Assembly (NCBI GenBank): GCA_017656185.1
Contig: JACDOK010000016.1
Location: 1-50,773 of the forward strand
DNA from: Peptococcaceae bacterium
Lineage (GTDB): Bacteria; Bacillota; Desulfotomaculia; Desulfotomaculales; JACDOK01
Length of the DNA stretch: 50,773 nucleotides
Direction of reading: 5' to 3'
Made by a program: the position numbers and the translations under genes. The notes beneath the pieces were generated by a model. The model was given only the letters and a program-made list of their open reading frames with translations. It was not told the origin of the DNA and made no database searches. Below, one piece after another: positions 39,734 through 49,693 of the stretch (positions within the stretch are counted from its first letter, which is position 1; the number at the start of each line of letters is the position of its first letter).

Positions 39734-42700
39734 TTGGAAAAACTATCTATTCTACACGTATCCGATTTTCATATTGAAGAAAATAAGTTGCCTGATATCC
39801 AAATTGTTCTAGATGCCTTTTTTACGGACATAGTTAAGCTTACTCAAGAAAATAACGTTTCAATCGATTGCGTTTGTTTTACTGGGGACCTTATTCAATC
39901 AGGGGCTCAGAGGGAAAAACAATTTGATTTAGCAATAGATTATTTTATTACACCGTTAATGGACAAGTTACAGCTGCAAGAAAATAACTTCATTTTTGTC
40001 CCTGGCAATCATGAAGTAGATCTAACCCAAATTGATGAAATAATGGAACAGGGATTATGTTCTAGATTGATTAGTAAGGAAGCTACTAATGACTTCTTAG
40101 ATCACCTTCAATCCAAATACCTAACAAGAATTAGCCACTTTAATGAATTTACCCAACTTTTTCACAAGAATCCAATAATGAGTAACACTCTTACTTCCGC
40201 TTTTATTTTGGAAAAAGCTGGAATTAAGATTGGTTTCGCTTGTTTAAATTCTGCTTGGAGGTCAACAGGAGCAGGGGACGCAGAAAAAGGCAAATTGATC
40301 ATAGGAGAAAGGCAGGTTGATCAGGCTTACAACCCTATTTCAGAGTGTGATATAAAGATTGCCTTAATGCACCATCCCTTGGAGTGGTTAATGGATCATG
40401 ATAAACAAGCTGTCGGTCCATTATTAGCTCATTTTGATCTAGTGCTTTTCGGCCATCTCCATAATCTATCAAATCAACAAATCATAACCCCAAGACAAAA
40501 TACTCTTTATTGTGGTTCCGGAGCCCTTTTTAAGGGCCGTTCTATATACAATGGGTACTCACTAATCATAATTAATCTGTCTAGTTTTGAAGCAACAATC
40601 CTTGTACGTGAGTATTTTGACGGTAAAAGAAGTTTTGACAAAGCATTATCAGTAGCGGACGAGGGTCGTATTACTTATCAGCTTAATCCAAAGCAGACAA
40701 GCGTAACAATAAGTTTAAACTTGATAACTAACTTACGTGAACGTTTAATTCCAAAAGTTAACAAATCTTTAGTCTCAACTATGGTAGATCATTCTGCTCC
40801 TCAACAGCTTGAAGAACTTTTTGTGTCGCCTAATTTAAGTTATAAATCGGTATACAGAAAAGAAGAAGAACAGGAAAGTCCGAAAGGAAAACCTAAACTT
40901 GAAGATATTCTCGAGGCAAACGAAAATGTTATGTTTATTGGGAAGAAAGAAATCGGTAAAACAACATTGTTACATTATATTACAGTTCATTACATAAAAG
41001 AATTTGGTAGATTATTTAAAGTGCCCTTTGTAATCGACCTTAACTTAATACCAAAAGGTAAAAACATTATTGAAAAAGCCATGATCGATTTTATCTTACG
41101 TAGTACAGACCATCAGGTAGTTCTTACATTAGATCAAATTATTGAACTTTTGCAATTAGGAAATTGTATAATCCTCCTTGACAACCTCGATATTAGCAAT
41201 AAAAAGCAAATAACTGTCATAAAAACCTTTATTGATAAATACCCTGGTAATCGGCTAATTATAACGGTAAACGAAGATATTTTTACTTCTGTTTCTGAAA
41301 AATACTTGCCCGATTTCGGATGCAAGAAAATTTATATGCTCCCATTTACAAGAAACGATATTAGAGCATTAATCACAAAATGGTTTAATACTAATCAATC
41401 AGTTAATATTGTTGATGTTGACCAATTTCTGAACAAAATAGTTTCACACCTAACATACATTGGCTTACCAAGAACACCATTTATAATTTCCCTTTTATTG
41501 GCTATTTGTAACAATGACCAGAACTATATGCCTGTAAATGAGTCGTCAATGATAGAAAGATTTATGGAAATTGTTCTTGAGAAAATGAGATTAGAAGAAA
41601 CAAAAATTAGTACGTATGATTTTTTAAATAAAGAAAATTTTTTAGCATTCCTAGCTTGGCACATGGCTCAAAAAGATAGATTTTATTTAGATAAGCATGA
41701 ATTTCTTGAGCTTACGGCAAAGTATTTTGAAGATATTGGTTTTGATCTAGCATCCAGTAAATTTGATACATTGTTTTTTGAAAAAGGCGTTCTTGCTGAA
41801 TATGATGATAAAGTTTTCTTTCGGTATAGATGCTTAGCAGAGTATTATTTAGCAAAGAAAGCTAGTACTGACCCGGATGTTTTAGATTGGATACTGTTAC
41901 CGGAAAACTACTTAAGGTTTACCAGTGAAATTTCTTTCCTCACCGGGTCGAATAGAAATCTAATTAAAGTAGTGGAATGCCTTGAAAAACGTTTGGCATC
42001 TCTTATGCAGAATCACATTTCATTACTACCAAATTTACAAGATTATGGCATAGACGTTGATTTTAGTTTATCCACAGAGACAATTGAGGCTGAATTAGAA
42101 GAATGTATTCTGGATGATGAAGAAAAGGATAAAATTTTTGATTACCCAGATCTATCCGAGCAAGTAAACTCCCCAGATGCTCCACGGAAGGTTTCAGGCT
42201 CAAATACCTTCATATCCACCCTATTACTCTTCGGTAGGGTTATTCGAAATAGTGAACAACTTAGTGCAAAGATCAAGGAAAGGACACTTAGTCTTTGTAT
42301 TAATGGTTACTGTGTTGCATTAGCCATTTTCAAGCAACATATTGAGAATATAACGAAAGAAAACTTAAATGCAAATTTAGAACAATTCGGTATCAATCGC
42401 CAAACTAAGGATGACGAAATAAAACTCATCAAAAACATACTAAAAATAACAGTACCACTGGTATTGCAGAATGTAGCTTCTGAAACAATAGGCTCTCCTA
42501 AACTAAAAAGTATTTTTGAAAGGCTAATAAGTAACAAGGATTGTGATGACTTTTCCAAGTTTATCTATATCTTCCTATATGGTGATTTAAAGCTACCTGG
42601 GTATATTGACAAGATGGAAAAATTTATAAGGTGCACAACATCAAAAGATATCCTTTCGCTAATAGTGTTTAAGTTATGGTTCTATTATCTTATTGGTCAT

Positions 42701-42850
42701 ACCACTCCTTATCAAGACAAGGCTGAATCTTTGCTCGCTGATGCAATTATTAAGGTTAAAAAACTTCATACACGTTTAAAAAGTGAAGTTATCAAAACCC
42801 TTCGCAAAAAGGCGATTGATATTAGAGGCTTCCTCACAGCATCTGGTTAA
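39734..42850 (+). CDS. Metallophosphoesterase-STAND/NACHT-like NTPase (candidate defence protein)
   Basis: A 1038-residue protein. Residues 1-300 are a calcineurin-like phosphoesterase with all metal motifs: Asp11/His13 (HVSDFHI), Asp52 (FTGDLI), Asn92-His93 (VPGNHEVD), His213 (LMHHPLEW) and His241/His243 (FGHLHN). Residues 395-720 form a P-loop NTPase of the NACHT/STAND type: GKKEIGKT at 403-410, Walker B IILLDNLD at 479-486, then a winged-helix-like region (VFFRYRCLAEYYLAKKA). The last 300 residues are helical and may act as sensor. TTG start, SD AAGGGGGT. It is far more AT-rich than the secretion genes, so recently acquired cargo. Family knowledge: calcineurin-like effectors fused to STAND ATPases occur in anti-phage conflict systems; activity here is inferred. 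Confidence 0.8.
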   Translation: MEKLSILHVSDFHIEENKLPDIQIVLDAFFTDIVKLTQENNVSIDCVCFTGDLIQSGAQREKQFDLAIDYFITPLMDKLQLQENNFIFVPGNHEVDLTQIDEIMEQGLCSRLISKEATNDFLDHLQSKYLTRISHFNEFTQLFHKNPIMSNTLTSAFILEKAGIKIGFACLNSAWRSTGAGDAEKGKLIIGERQVDQAYNPISECDIKIALMHHPLEWLMDHDKQAVGPLLAHFDLVLFGHLHNLSNQQIITPRQNTLYCGSGALFKGRSIYNGYSLIIINLSSFEATILVREYFDGKRSFDKALSVADEGRITYQLNPKQTSVTISLNLITNLRERLIPKVNKSLVSTMVDHSAPQQLEELFVSPNLSYKSVYRKEEEQESPKGKPKLEDILEANENVMFIGKKEIGKTTLLHYITVHYIKEFGRLFKVPFVIDLNLIPKGKNIIEKAMIDFILRSTDHQVVLTLDQIIELLQLGNCIILLDNLDISNKKQITVIKTFIDKYPGNRLIITVNEDIFTSVSEKYLPDFGCKKIYMLPFTRNDIRALITKWFNTNQSVNIVDVDQFLNKIVSHLTYIGLPRTPFIISLLLAICNNDQNYMPVNESSMIERFMEIVLEKMRLEETKISTYDFLNKENFLAFLAWHMAQKDRFYLDKHEFLELTAKYFEDIGFDLASSKFDTLFFEKGVLAEYDDKVFFRYRCLAEYYLAKKASTDPDVLDWILLPENYLRFTSEISFLTGSNRNLIKVVECLEKRLASLMQNHISLLPNLQDYGIDVDFSLSTETIEAELEECILDDEEKDKIFDYPDLSEQVNSPDAPRKVSGSNTFISTLLLFGRVIRNSEQLSAKIKERTLSLCINGYCVALAIFKQHIENITKENLNANLEQFGINRQTKDDEIKLIKNILKITVPLVLQNVASETIGSPKLKSIFERLISNKDCDDFSKFIYIFLYGDLKLPGYIDKMEKFIRCTTSKDILSLIVFKLWFYYLIGHTTPYQDKAESLLADAIIKVKKLHTRLKSEVIKTLRKKAIDIRGFLTASG

Positions 42851-42915: not shown

Positions 42916-43047
42916 TCACAGGTCCATCTGCACCGCCAGCGCCCCGGTCAGCATTTCGAAATCCCGGTAGGTATCCGGGTCCACGTCCACCCCGGCCAAA
43001 ATGTGGAACGTGCCCCGGATACCCCGCCATTCGTCATCTACTCCCAC
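42916..43047 (-). CDS. 43-residue ORF overlapping integrase 3' end
   Basis: GTG 43047 lies within the last codons of the tyrosine recombinase gene; the product (start MGVDDEWRGIRGTFHILAGV, later DPDTYRDFEMLTGALAVQM) reads like real protein and its GC content and codon use match the recombinase, not the AT-rich cargo on the other side. SD weak (GGTGG). It may be a small accessory factor or the remaining part of a larger gene. Not recognised. Confidence 0.4.
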   Translation of the reverse strand: MGVDDEWRGIRGTFHILAGVDVDPDTYRDFEMLTGALAVQMDL

Positions 43048-43898
43048 GCCAGCTTTTCCACCGCCCGCTCCAGGTCCTGCACCGACGGCCTAGTGTACCT
43101 GGCCGTGGTGTTTAGGTTTGAGTGACCCATCAGGGTAGCCACCCTGTCCAAACTTTCTCCCGCATCCACCAGAAGTTTGCCAAAGGTATGCCGCAACCGG
43201 TGTGGGGTTACTTCCACTCCCGCCAACCGTCCAAACCGAACCAGCACCTTCTCAACAGCCCTGGTAGTAATGTGTCCTCCCCGACCCCGGCGACTGGGAA
43301 ACAACCATTCTCCTGTCAACCCGGCCAAATACTCACTCAATACCCGCCTAACCGTAACATTTAAGGGCACTTCCCGATATTTATCGCCTTTGCCCTGGCG
43401 CACCCGCACAAAGCCCGACCGCTCCCGAATAACTACGTCATCCAGCCGTAATGCTACGACTTCGGATACACGCAGGCCGGCATGCAGCAGGAGCATCACC
43501 AGGACCTGATCGCGCAAAGAACCATACTTCCGTACCGTCCTGACAAGTGTTCCTAGCTCCCTGCGCTCCAACCAGCGTGGAGCCTTTTTCTGCTCCCGAA
43601 CCCGCTTTACCCCGGCGGTAGGGTCGGACTGAACTACCTTCTCGACAACGGCCCAGGAAAAGAAACTGGATAACACGTCCAGGGCGTGATTTACTGTGGC
43701 GGGTTTCCTGCCCCGCTCCAGCAGATAGCGGCGGTAGTCAGCCACGTCCAGGGGAGTTACGGCAGCCGGGTCGAAGTCGCCGTAAGTTTGCTCCACCCAT
43801 CCAGCAAAGCGCCGCAGGGTAGATAAGTAGTCGGTTACGGTGTGATCGGAGAGTCCTCGCCCCCGCAGATATAATTCAAAAGTGTGTAATAGGCCCAC
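43038..43898 (-). CDS. Tyrosine recombinase (XerC/XerD-like)
   Basis: A 286-residue phage-integrase-family recombinase. Residues 1-85 form the SAM-like core-binding domain and 105-286 the catalytic domain. The catalytic set is complete: Arg143 (HAGLRVSEV), Lys170 (RQGKGDK), His233 and Arg236 (PHRLRHTF), His259 (LMGHSN) and nucleophile Tyr268 (ARYTR). It lacks the arm-type DNA-binding domain of Tn916-like integrases, so XerC/D-type site-specific integration or multimer resolution are both possible. GTG start with GGGAGGAAG SD. A hairpin and a long inverted repeat lie directly upstream. It could be the integrase of an ICE or the resolvase of a plasmid. Confidence 0.9.
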   Translation of the reverse strand: MGLLHTFELYLRGRGLSDHTVTDYLSTLRRFAGWVEQTYGDFDPAAVTPLDVADYRRYLLERGRKPATVNHALDVLSSFFSWAVVEKVVQSDPTAGVKRVREQKKAPRWLERRELGTLVRTVRKYGSLRDQVLVMLLLHAGLRVSEVVALRLDDVVIRERSGFVRVRQGKGDKYREVPLNVTVRRVLSEYLAGLTGEWLFPSRRGRGGHITTRAVEKVLVRFGRLAGVEVTPHRLRHTFGKLLVDAGESLDRVATLMGHSNLNTTARYTRPSVQDLERAVEKLAWE

Positions 43899-45896: not shown

Positions 45897-46705
45897 TTAG
45901 AACAACCTTAAACCGAACACTTGCCTTGCCGCTTTTTCATTCAACCACAGGACTTCCTGCCGCGCCCGGCCCCCCTCTGCCAGGGTGCGTATCGTCCTGC
46001 GCTCCCAGTGTGCCAGCCGTTCATTATATATCGGGTTATCGTAACCGCTTAACAGGACAGGTCCCGGATGCTGGTCCAGAGCTTCCAACAGTTTAACGTG
46101 ATCCTCATTGGTCATTTCGTAAGCGTAAAAAGTGCAACTCCGGGTACTAAGCGGATACGGTGGATCGGCGTATATCAATACATCCGGATGTTTGTAACGT
46201 TCAATTAACTTCAATGCCGGCTGATTCTCTATTTGAGCGTTTTTAAGACGCGTTGCAACATGTATAATCTGTTCAGGAAGATGCCCCACCGATAAACACA
46301 GTACATCCTACGCCTTCCAACTATGTCATTTCTCCATCCTGTTTTTGTACAGGTTCTTGTTCCAAAAGCCTGCCAGCACCGAACCAGGAACCGCCTGGCG
46401 TCCTCCAGTGGGTCACCGGTGCGCTCATAGCTGGCGTAATATTCCTCCCTGGCCCAGGGTGTCATCTCAATGAGTGCCGCCAACTCTTCCGTCCGATCCC
46501 GAATTACCCGAAATAAATTAACTACGTTGCCGTCGATGTCGTTTATTGTTTCTATTGGAGACGGCGGCTTATTAAAGAACACTGCTCCAGACCCGAAAAA
46601 GGGTTCCAGGTATGTTGTGTGCGCCGGCATATGGCTAACTATCCAGTCAGCTATCGTCCATTTTGACCCCGGATATTTAAGCACACGTGCAGTAGCATCC
46701 ACCAT
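45897..46705 (-). pseudogene. DNA adenine methylase (Dam family) with one frameshift
   Basis: Start ATG 46705 (TAGTATG coupling with the upstream gene, GGGAGTGGG SD). Part one carries VLKYPGSKWTIADWI (the FxGxK-like SAM motif), LEPFFGSGAVFF and NDIDGNVVNLFRVIRD. Part two, in another frame, carries the catalytic IYADPPYPLSTR and a C-terminal TRD-like region. The frames join at a run of four C (46284-46287; G on the coding strand). One extra G would restore VYRWGHLPEQIIHV. Restored length is about 270 residues, normal for Dam (GATC-type or related N6-adenine methylase). As sequenced it should be inactive unless slippage occurs. Confidence 0.8.
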
Positions 46706-46706
46706 A

Positions 46707-47081
46707 CTAACCCACTCCCAACAGGGGTTCCCACAGCAACCCCCTGGCAATACATTTTTCAATCGCTTTCCTTCGTACCCCGTATACCCATTCCGGCATC
46801 TTAGTAAAGTCAACAATTTCATCCCAGGAATGTTTTATCTTGCTTGCTTCCTCGGCGAGTACCCGAGCGACTTCGCAGGCGTCCCTAATCGTTGCTATAT
46901 CAACCACAATCGCGACACCGCATGCAAGTGACACGCGGCAATCTCCGGCAAAATCAAACCCCCTGGGAAGTTTATGGACAACCAACCCGGGAAACTCCCG
47001 GCTGACAATAGCCCGAACGGGCCTGTAACGCAAAGGTGCAGTGCCGCAATGCGAAGGAGCATAAGCAATATTGAAACACAC
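46707..47081 (-). CDS. Hypothetical protein upstream of Dam
   Basis: A 124-residue protein (GTG start, weak SD AAGGATTAGG). Mixed alpha/beta, with a hydrophobic beta region (RVSLACGVAIVVDIATIRDA) and a helical end (VYGVRRKAIEKCIARG). Its stop overlaps the SD region of the Dam gene, so they form one unit. It is not a recognised methylase or restriction partner. No function is assigned. Confidence 0.5.
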   Translation of the reverse strand: MCFNIAYAPSHCGTAPLRYRPVRAIVSREFPGLVVHKLPRGFDFAGDCRVSLACGVAIVVDIATIRDACEVARVLAEEASKIKHSWDEIVDFTKMPEWVYGVRRKAIEKCIARGLLWEPLLGVG

Positions 47082-48223: not shown

Positions 48224-48562
48224 TTACCGGGTATTTGTTGTGTTATGATAAGAAAGTAATCTATGGAAAGTAATTTCACCTAGGTTAAACCTATTTTTCT
48301 GTTTTGAAAATTGTTTATTTTGTTGCTTCTTTTGGCCCATAGGTTGGAGTGCTCGCGTTGTGCGAGCATCATCTCCAAAATAAATAGCCTCTACAGGCAC
48401 TCCAAAAAATCTTGCAATTTTGATTGCTGTTTTTAGGGGCGGAGTTCGCTTTCCAGTTTCGTACATTGCAACAGTGCTTGGATGTAATCTAACGGCTTTA
48501 GCAAATTCTCGTTGTGTTAATCTTTTTTCTCTTCTTAGTTGCGCTAAGGTCTTGGTTTTCAT
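48224..48562 (-). CDS. XRE-family regulator A (leftward)
   Basis: 112 residues from ATG 48562 with AAAGGTGAT SD. Residues 5-60 form a classic XRE/Cro HTH (LAQLRREKRLTQREFAKAVR, then LHPSTVAMYETGKRTPP) ending VPVEAIYFG. A basic, Gln/Lys-rich tail follows (KKQQNKQFSKQKNRF). It is transcribed from the consensus promoter 48607-48635, whose spacer contains an operator, and is divergent to regulator B. By arrangement it is the Cro-like partner of the ImmR-like repressor. Confidence 0.8.
   Translation of the reverse strand: MKTKTLAQLRREKRLTQREFAKAVRLHPSTVAMYETGKRTPPLKTAIKIARFFGVPVEAIYFGDDARTTRALQPMGQKKQQNKQFSKQKNRFNLGEITFHRLLSYHNTTNTR
48350..48368. promoter_or_regulatory. Operator-like palindrome inside regulator A gene
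   Basis: TGCTCGC-GTTGT-GCGAGCA, a perfect 7-bp inverted repeat within the 3' part of the regulator A gene, matching the operator consensus CTCGCA-NNN-TGTGAG found in the divergent promoter region. Confidence 0.5.
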
Positions 48563-48580
48563 GGGCATCACCTTTCCGCT

Positions 48581-48595
48581 CTCGCATGTTGTGAG
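48581..48595. promoter_or_regulatory. Operator downstream of leftward promoter
   Basis: CTCGCA-TGT-TGTGAG, one mismatch from perfect dyad. It lies between the -10 of the leftward promoter and the regulator A start codon, so a bound protein would block early transcription. Confidence 0.6.
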
Positions 48596-48606
48596 CATCT
48601 AATAGA

Positions 48607-48635
48607 ATAATACACGCAATATGTGAGCATGTCAA
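48607..48635 (-). promoter_or_regulatory. Leftward promoter with operator in its spacer
   Basis: Minus strand TTGACA (48635-48630), 17-base spacer, TATTAT (48612-48607). The spacer contains CACGCA-ATA-TGTGAG (48613-48627, plus-strand reading), a third operator copy. Drives regulator A. Confidence 0.75.
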
Positions 48636-48677
48636 TACTTCCGGCAATAGAATTTCACTATTCGCGAACATATATTT

Positions 48678-48706
48678 TTGACAACTCACAAATTGTGATA
48701 GTATAT
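48678..48706 (+). promoter_or_regulatory. Rightward promoter with operator in its spacer
   Basis: TTGACA (48678-48683), 17-base spacer, GTATAT (48701-48706). The spacer holds CTCACA-AAT-TGTGAT (48685-48699), the fourth operator. Drives regulator B and the ImmA-like gene. Confidence 0.7.
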
Positions 48707-48725
48707 GGTGATGGGGAGAAAAAAT

Positions 48726-49118
48726 ATGATGCTAGCGTCAAGATTAAGGCTTTTAAGAACAAAAAAGGGGTTAAGTCAACGGGAGCTAGCCAAACTGATA
48801 AAGATAGCACCTAGCACCCTAGCTATGTATGAAGTAGGAAAAAGGGAACCTGACTACAACACCTTAGAAAAAATAGCTGATTTCTATGGAGTCACTACAG
48901 ACTATCTTCTTGGCCGCACCGATAACCCAAAAGGAAACGTAGACGAATACGATCCTAAATTGAAGAAGGCCCTCGAAGATCCGGCTATTACCGACTTATT
49001 AATGAAAGTTCCGGATCTTACCGAAGAAGAAAAGCAGTCGCTTGCCGAACACTGGGCCTATGTGATGGACTTCATAGAGCGAAAACGCCAAGAACGCAAG
49101 AAACAGCAAAACGATTAA
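48726..49118 (+). CDS. XRE-family repressor B (ImmR-like)
   Basis: About 130 residues from ATG 48726 or 48729 (GGGGAGAAAAAAT SD). N-terminal HTH (residues 3-60: LRLLRTKKGLSQRELAKLIK, IAPSTLAMYEVGKREPDYNT) with the typical IADFYGVTTDYLLGRTDNP linker. The C-terminal 70 residues are helical (DLTEEEKQSLAEHWAYVMDF) and may mediate oligomerisation. This length and layout match ImmR of ICEBs1 and related repressors that keep mobile elements quiet. The next gene downstream is ImmA-like, as in ICEBs1. Confidence 0.85.
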   Translation: MMLASRLRLLRTKKGLSQRELAKLIKIAPSTLAMYEVGKREPDYNTLEKIADFYGVTTDYLLGRTDNPKGNVDEYDPKLKKALEDPAITDLLMKVPDLTEEEKQSLAEHWAYVMDFIERKRQERKKQQND

Positions 49119-49225
49119 AAACCACCTCTTCTAACCAAAAAGAAGGCCGCTGCCGAGAGCAGCGCCTTCGCCGTTTATAGGGGTCTCGACACAAATCGAC
49201 AAATATTTTCACCAAGGTGATCCAA

Positions 49226-49693
49226 TTGCACTGGGCAATCAACCGCGCTTTCGAAGTGCTTGAGAAATACGACCTGTGGGATACCTATGTAGGACTTCGT
49301 CAGCTAAGGATGATCTGCGACAACCAGGACGTTTACTATACAACCTTCCCCTTCCGCGGCCGGATCAGGGAACGGTATGTGCGAACATCGGACGATATCA
49401 AAGTATTGACGGTAGATCGCCGCGCCCTGGGCGACACGGCCATGCACAAACATTTAATTGCTCACGGCCTGGGACACCACTTCCTGCACCAGGGCAACCA
49501 CTGCCACCTGCATACCCTGTACCTGGACAAGCAGGAAATCGAAGCGGAGCAGTTTGCGGCTGTGCTGCTGGTACCGCCGGGCGTGCTGCGCTCTGAAGAC
49601 AGCTGGACACCAAAGAAGATCGCCCTGAGATGTCGTGTACCGACCAATGTGGCTGCCCGCCGCTTCCGGATTATGGAACGAGTGGGGATGTGA
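49226..49693 (+). CDS. ImmA/IrrE-family protein with altered active site
   Basis: About 155 residues; TTG 49226 follows AAGGTGATC, a strong SD, better than the GTG at 49217 that lies inside it. ImmA/IrrE fold features are present: VDRRALGDTAMHKHLIAHGL then GHHFLH, and EIEAEQFAAVLLVPPGVL with the third zinc-ligand Glu. The HExxH motif reads HGLGH (codons CAC GGC CTG GGA CAC), so the catalytic Glu is Gly. A two-base change from GAA or GAG is needed, so it is not a simple read error. The zinc ligands remain. Intact family members cleave the neighbouring ImmR-like repressor to switch on the element. Confidence 0.8.
   Translation: MHWAINRAFEVLEKYDLWDTYVGLRQLRMICDNQDVYYTTFPFRGRIRERYVRTSDDIKVLTVDRRALGDTAMHKHLIAHGLGHHFLHQGNHCHLHTLYLDKQEIEAEQFAAVLLVPPGVLRSEDSWTPKKIALRCRVPTNVAARRFRIMERVGM

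Follow-up and report, generated by a model that had tools for sequence, protein, structure and literature searches.

A conserved divergent XRE/XRE–M78 control region with predicted operators on both promoters and an M78 partner that lacks the HExxH glutamate

The window, that is, the whole stretch of 50,773 nucleotides analysed here (contig JACDOK010000016.1 of a Peptococcaceae bacterium), carries two divergent XRE genes and an M78 gene. Judged from the sequence, the architecture of this switch is real and conserved, and an ICEBs1-type protease step is unsupported. We read the locus as probably an immunity-type control region of an integrative conjugative element or prophage, a repressor–Cro-type switch in which the M78 partner would act without proteolysis. 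The compact divergent layout, with predicted operators on both promoters and the same arrangement in relatives, is the well supported part of this reading.

Gene content of the locus

Open reading frames and Pfam matches bear out the divergent set of two XRE genes and an ImmA-like gene described in the first-pass annotation. The left XRE gene, short and Cro-like, lies on the minus strand (48224..48562; HTH_3, E=1.3e-16). Its likely start is ATG 48562, with 48568 as an alternative, and the ribosome-binding-like sequence GGAAAGGTG is found upstream. The right XRE gene, a candidate for an ImmR/DdrO-like repressor, lies on the plus strand (48726..49118; HTH_3, E=5.2e-18). Here we favour ATG 48726, which has GGGGAG upstream of it, because the start of the open reading frame at 48705 precedes the expected start of transcription. 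A C-terminal helix region of the right protein, LTEEEKxSLAEHW, is conserved. The left and right proteins match at 50% over the HTH (DNA-binding) domain, and sequence comparison gives close recognition helices, PSTVAMYE and PSTLAMYE.

The third gene, also on the plus strand, encodes an M78 (IrrE N-terminal-like) pseudo-protease (49217..49693; PF06114, E=5e-9) and starts at GTG 49217 or, by comparison with relatives, at TTG 49226. The locus thus has a pair of divergent genes, both with HTH_3 matches, as expected of CI/Cro regulators, as well as an XRE repressor gene followed directly by that of an M78-fold protein, as in ImmR/ImmA modules.

The gap between the repressor and M78 genes (49119-49216) holds a strong hairpin with a T-run after it on the minus strand, which is terminator-like. 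A search against Rfam gave no match for an RNA element at the locus.

Promoters and predicted operators

The left promoter (48607..48635, minus strand) matches the consensus, with TTGACA at 48635-48630, a 17-nt spacer and TATTAT at 48612-48607. Its spacer is filled by the dyad CACGCAATATGTGAG (48613..48627), which ends exactly at the -10. The right promoter (48678..48704, plus strand) can be read as TTGACA-15-TAGTAT with an extended -10 (TG at 48696-48697) or as TTGACA-18-TATATG; a simple promoter scan gives no call and there is no usable 17-nt spacer. Comparison with relatives favours the extended -10 reading, since the same register of dyad and -10 is seen in six other loci. In this register, the right half of the dyad CTCACAAATTGTGAT (48685..48699) would provide the TGn and the -10 starts on the last base of the dyad. 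The earlier description of two promoters with 17-base spacers filled by dyads therefore holds for the left promoter and fails for the right one, where only 15 or 18 nt are available. The two promoters had also been called facing; they are in fact oriented back to back.

All four dyads reported in the first-pass annotation are real, and its count was one short. The one that had been missed, TTCACTATTCGCGAA (48654..48668), lies between the promoters. Of the two others, CTCGCATGTTGTGAG (48581..48595) is placed between the expected start of the left promoter and the ribosome-binding site of the left gene, and CTCGCGTTGTGCGAG (48352..48366) lies inside the left XRE gene, near its 3′ part. The locus thus has five related dyads of the general form TCRC-N5-GYGA, all of them predicted operators read from the sequence.

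With at most one mismatch, CTCRCANNNTGYGAG occurs at five places in the 2.3-Mb genome, four of them at this locus within 348 bp. The fifth place (C28:5671) was rejected as a second target and attributed to chance, as it lies inside a phoU-like coding sequence. In the 156-bp intergenic region, four dyads agree with the core at 7 or more of its 8 positions; shuffles lead one to expect 0.18, and none of 1000 shuffled sequences reached four. When up to three mismatches to CTCRCANNNTGYGAG were allowed, the window showed no excess (23 found, 43 expected), so only close copies of the dyad are meaningful. These genome counts and shuffles, together with the conservation described below, rule out chance repeats. 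A genome-wide regulon is not claimed: a looser pattern, WTCRCN5GYGAW, occurs at 34 places and its reversed control at 17, but the places are scattered and include only the middle dyad of this locus.

Conservation of the layout in relatives

Searches with the M78 protein revealed the same order of XRE / XRE–M78 genes in a Desulfosporosinus genome and elsewhere in the order and the phylum; IMG/VR phage contigs have a similar gene order. A protein search of annotated phages and plasmids returned no homologues. For the comparison of DNA sites we used eight loci (the window, L020, L013, L027, L028, L031, L033 and L095), with the close g8 genomes reduced to one representative. The dyad pattern was derived from the window sites themselves. 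Its core was then applied to the relatives, which makes them a fair and independent check.

All eight loci have the left promoter, with TTGACA or TTGCAT as the -35 and a dyad that begins 2-3 nt after it and runs to the -10. At seven of the eight, L027 being the exception, the final base of a dyad is also the first base of the right -10, and the extended -10 takes its TG from that dyad. Most loci have a middle dyad (besides the window, L020, L013, L028, L031 and L033). The dyad counts of the relatives, at 7 of 8 core positions, were reached in 0 to 26 of 1000 shuffles. The several repressor sites in both promoters that characterise ImmR/ImmA modules thus have their counterpart here in predicted sites that are conserved in relatives. 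The relatives do not keep the helical phasing seen among the dyads of the window (3, 4 and 3 turns), and we do not use it as an argument.

The intragenic dyad is found at position 203 of the coding sequence in the window and at 197-212 in every left XRE gene read except that of L020. It comes directly after the same landmark of the protein, an FF or FG motif closing the HTH domain. The residues encoded there vary (ARTTR in the window; HGSR, HESR, HEPR, HDMR or HETQ in others), and in L028 the stop codon forms part of the dyad. A fixed place with changing amino acids argues for selection on the DNA, although conserved H and R/Q codons in related genes account for part of the pattern.

Two groups of loci differ in their sites. 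The IMG/VR phage loci L016-L018 belong to the same M78 clade but lack the dyad sequence of the window. In the prophage locus L096, which was left out of the counts, TTGACA and TATAAT are separated by a dyad-like sequence of another kind.

The M78 protein and its lost active site

ImmA/IrrE-type proteins are generally thought to act by cutting the repressor. In the window protein, HExxH is replaced by HGLGH (residues 83-87; 49463..49477, plus strand). His83 and His87 are kept, as is the third zinc ligand, Glu107 (49535-49537, plus strand). In a fold search the predicted structure (mean pLDDT 90.3) matches CapP, PprI/IrrE and MtPrpR; a sequence-profile search of the PDB gave marginal matches only (CapP, E=0.98). 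By its sequence, the protein is not classifiable as a working ImmA protease, as it fails the defining HExxH feature of that family.

The loss extends to the whole clade. An intact HExxH is found in none of the 25 rows of the window's M78 clade, whereas 30 of 34 other M78 rows have HE..H. The same division is seen in the scores of M78 relatives: above 85 bits all are without an intact HExxH, and below 73 bits nearly all have it. The tree sets these 25 rows apart from the others by a single branch (92/87; 89% of bootstrap trees), so that a single origin of the HExxH-less clade is favoured, with moderate support. We found no report of this clade in the literature searched.

Members of the clade differ in what is left of the zinc site. 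Both histidines are kept, as HGLGH or HALGH, in the window, the Desulfosporosinus locus L020, the G118 prophage, phage contigs and one chromosomal copy (L062/L095). The remaining chromosomal copies have YGLGQ, CGLGQ, FGLGL, YGLAF and the like, with the zinc histidines gone, and L025 reads YELGQ, with the glutamate present and both histidines absent. Taken over seven chromosomal copies that are close to one another, median dN/dS is 0.46 for M78, 0.13 for the right XRE and 0.25 for the left XRE (0.18 for HflX, from three sequences), dS being small in all genes compared. Constraint on these M78 genes thus remains but is weaker, and some of the zinc-less copies may be decaying.

For three members of the clade (L029, L030 and L032, in G107, G105 and G108), the stretch read shows no divergent pair of XRE genes; in one of them, M78 has a subtilase and a large secreted protein as neighbours. 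The phage-type copies L021 and L022 are on contigs labelled as candidate phyla (Collierbacteria, Paceibacterota) and may be phage or misbinned.

These results divide the lambda- or ICEBs1-like switch proposed in the first-pass annotation. Its divergent repressor/Cro-type layout stands and is conserved, but its ImmA step does not, given HGLGH and the clade-wide loss. The switch logic had been drawn by analogy with ImmR/ImmA, and the sequence leaves the protease step of that analogy unsupported: when the glutamate of IrrE is changed (E83Q), the protein no longer removes DdrO from DNA (PMC5552922). Likewise, MpaR with the change H54A gives no cleavage (PMC6872733).

Genomic context

The contig of the switch also encodes a tyrosine recombinase (43038-43898), a topoisomerase, actin-like and ParA-like proteins, T2SSE/T2SSF, a TraG/HerA-type ATPase and an M23/SLT protein. 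This content fits an integrative conjugative element, although neither element ends nor a relaxase were identified in the window. Two further genes are worth recording. A gene for a D12-class adenine methyltransferase (45897-46822) occupies two overlapping frames, whose products align with consecutive portions of a single Pfam model, and is probably frameshifted. A protein of 1038 aa (39734-42850), encoded in a low-GC (33%) stretch, combines a calcineurin-like phosphoesterase domain with a NACHT/STAND-like region and is possibly a defence gene.

Two of the relatives look mobile: L020 has a serine recombinase close to an smpB-like gene, and the copy in G118 is accompanied by phage-type genes and by a serine recombinase next to a sigma-factor gene. 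The relatives carrying serine recombinases are L020 and L096/L104/L105.

In six chromosomal copies (L095, L097, L098, L099, L102 and L103), the next genes downstream of the left XRE gene, on its own strand, encode S-layer proteins (SLH, Big, fn3) or other large secreted proteins. The gap before them measures 78-201 bp, and only one of the six gaps (L103) has a hairpin with a T-rich run. Read-through from the left XRE gene into these genes is plausible, and the neighbourhood suggests that the switch may have been domesticated in the six relatives.

Discussion

In the mechanism that we propose, the 15-bp dyads are most likely the sites from which the right XRE protein represses both promoters, and the left one probably binds them too, as a Cro-like competitor. 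The left promoter would be shut by a dimer on the left-spacer dyad, and a dimer on the right dyad would cover the extended -10 of the right promoter. The middle, leader and intragenic dyads may contribute cooperativity, act as a roadblock or allow looping; looping to the intragenic site would resemble that demonstrated between the operators of pLS20 (PMC4207663). Such a switch could be bistable. The M78 protein, encoded directly after the repressor, would most likely bind it and block its dimerisation or oligomerisation, as a non-proteolytic antirepressor, perhaps gated by zinc at the retained His/His/Glu site. As this M78 family is without the residues needed for cutting, the switch probably works without it.

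Several known systems share parts of this arrangement. ICEBs1 of Bacillus subtilis has a repressor of the XRE type and about 130 aa followed by M78, an opposing promoter and several repressor sites, six in all, in both promoters (PMC8960796). In contrast to ICEBs1, the opposite gene of the window is a second XRE, its M78 lacks the catalytic glutamate and its dyads occupy the left spacer and overlap the right -10. With CI/Cro of phage lambda, the window has in common two divergent regulators that likely share operators between two promoters, but it has no CI-type self-cleavage domain, its five dyads are placed otherwise and M78 is a third gene. Rco of pLS20 likewise belongs to a conjugative element with divergent promoters, one XRE-type repressor, and operators that lie partly on the promoters and partly farther away (PMC4207663), whereas in pLS20 the promoters overlap, the loop is demonstrated and the antirepressor is a Rap protein. 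An XRE repressor is also paired with M78 in the Listeria monocin CI-like/MpaR, TnSmu1 ImmR/ImmA, CapH/CapP and DdrO/IrrE systems (PMC6872733, PMC10233336). CapP and PprI are the best fold matches of the window M78; unlike it, MpaR, TnSmu1 ImmA, CapP and IrrE have HEXXH and are shown or predicted proteases.

By analogy, we favour binding without cutting over a ligand-binding regulatory domain. The model for the former is Rir of a Streptococcus thermophilus phage, a COG2856 protein that acts on the repressor Crh by preventing its oligomerisation without cleavage (PMC7907104). For the window M78 this action is a proposal; Rir itself keeps a predicted intact HEXXH. The model for the latter is PrpR of Mycobacterium tuberculosis, a regulatory non-protease with an M78-like fold without HEXXH residues, which binds CoA (PMC6765138) and is among the best fold matches. 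On this model M78 would be a corepressor or coactivator of the XRE protein rather than an antirepressor, a role with which the persistence of zinc-less copies under some constraint agrees. However, PrpR is a single fused protein that binds CoA and an iron–sulfur cluster, there is no divergent XRE pair, and its M78-like domain is joined to an HTH and to a ligand-binding GAF-like part that is absent from the 158-aa M78. We consider a co-regulator of this kind unlikely.

It is distinctly unlikely that M78 still cuts the repressor as in a standard ImmR/ImmA pair despite HGLGH, with zinc bound and the glutamate replaced by something else. The retained zinc site, with His83, His87 and Glu107, might support residual catalysis, and the gene order is that of ICEBs1-type modules (PMC8960796); but the glutamate is absent from nearly the whole clade, later members lose the histidines too, and IrrE E83Q is inactive (PMC5552922). 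That the M78 gene is a decaying relic, which would leave the switch to the repressor and the Cro-like protein alone, is very unlikely: the weaker constraint and further loss of zinc ligands in chromosomal copies agree with it, but across long divergence many genomes and phage contigs retain the gene intact next to that of the repressor, with core residues conserved and dN/dS below 1.

For the M78 clade as a whole, we tentatively suggest that it arose once, in mobile elements, when the catalytic glutamate was lost; there the protein would have served as a non-proteolytic partner of an XRE repressor. It may then have been taken over, together with the operators and the Cro-like gene, in chromosomes of Bacillota as a switch for surface-layer genes, the zinc site being lost too.

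A clade that keeps the partner but not the scissors is a natural test of the share that binding alone has in antirepressor function. The conserved operator layout, including an intragenic dyad that stays in place while the amino acids change, gives predictions at the level of DNA that can be tested by footprints. If the surface-layer neighbours are indeed regulated by the module, a switch of mobile elements would have become a regulator of the cell surface.
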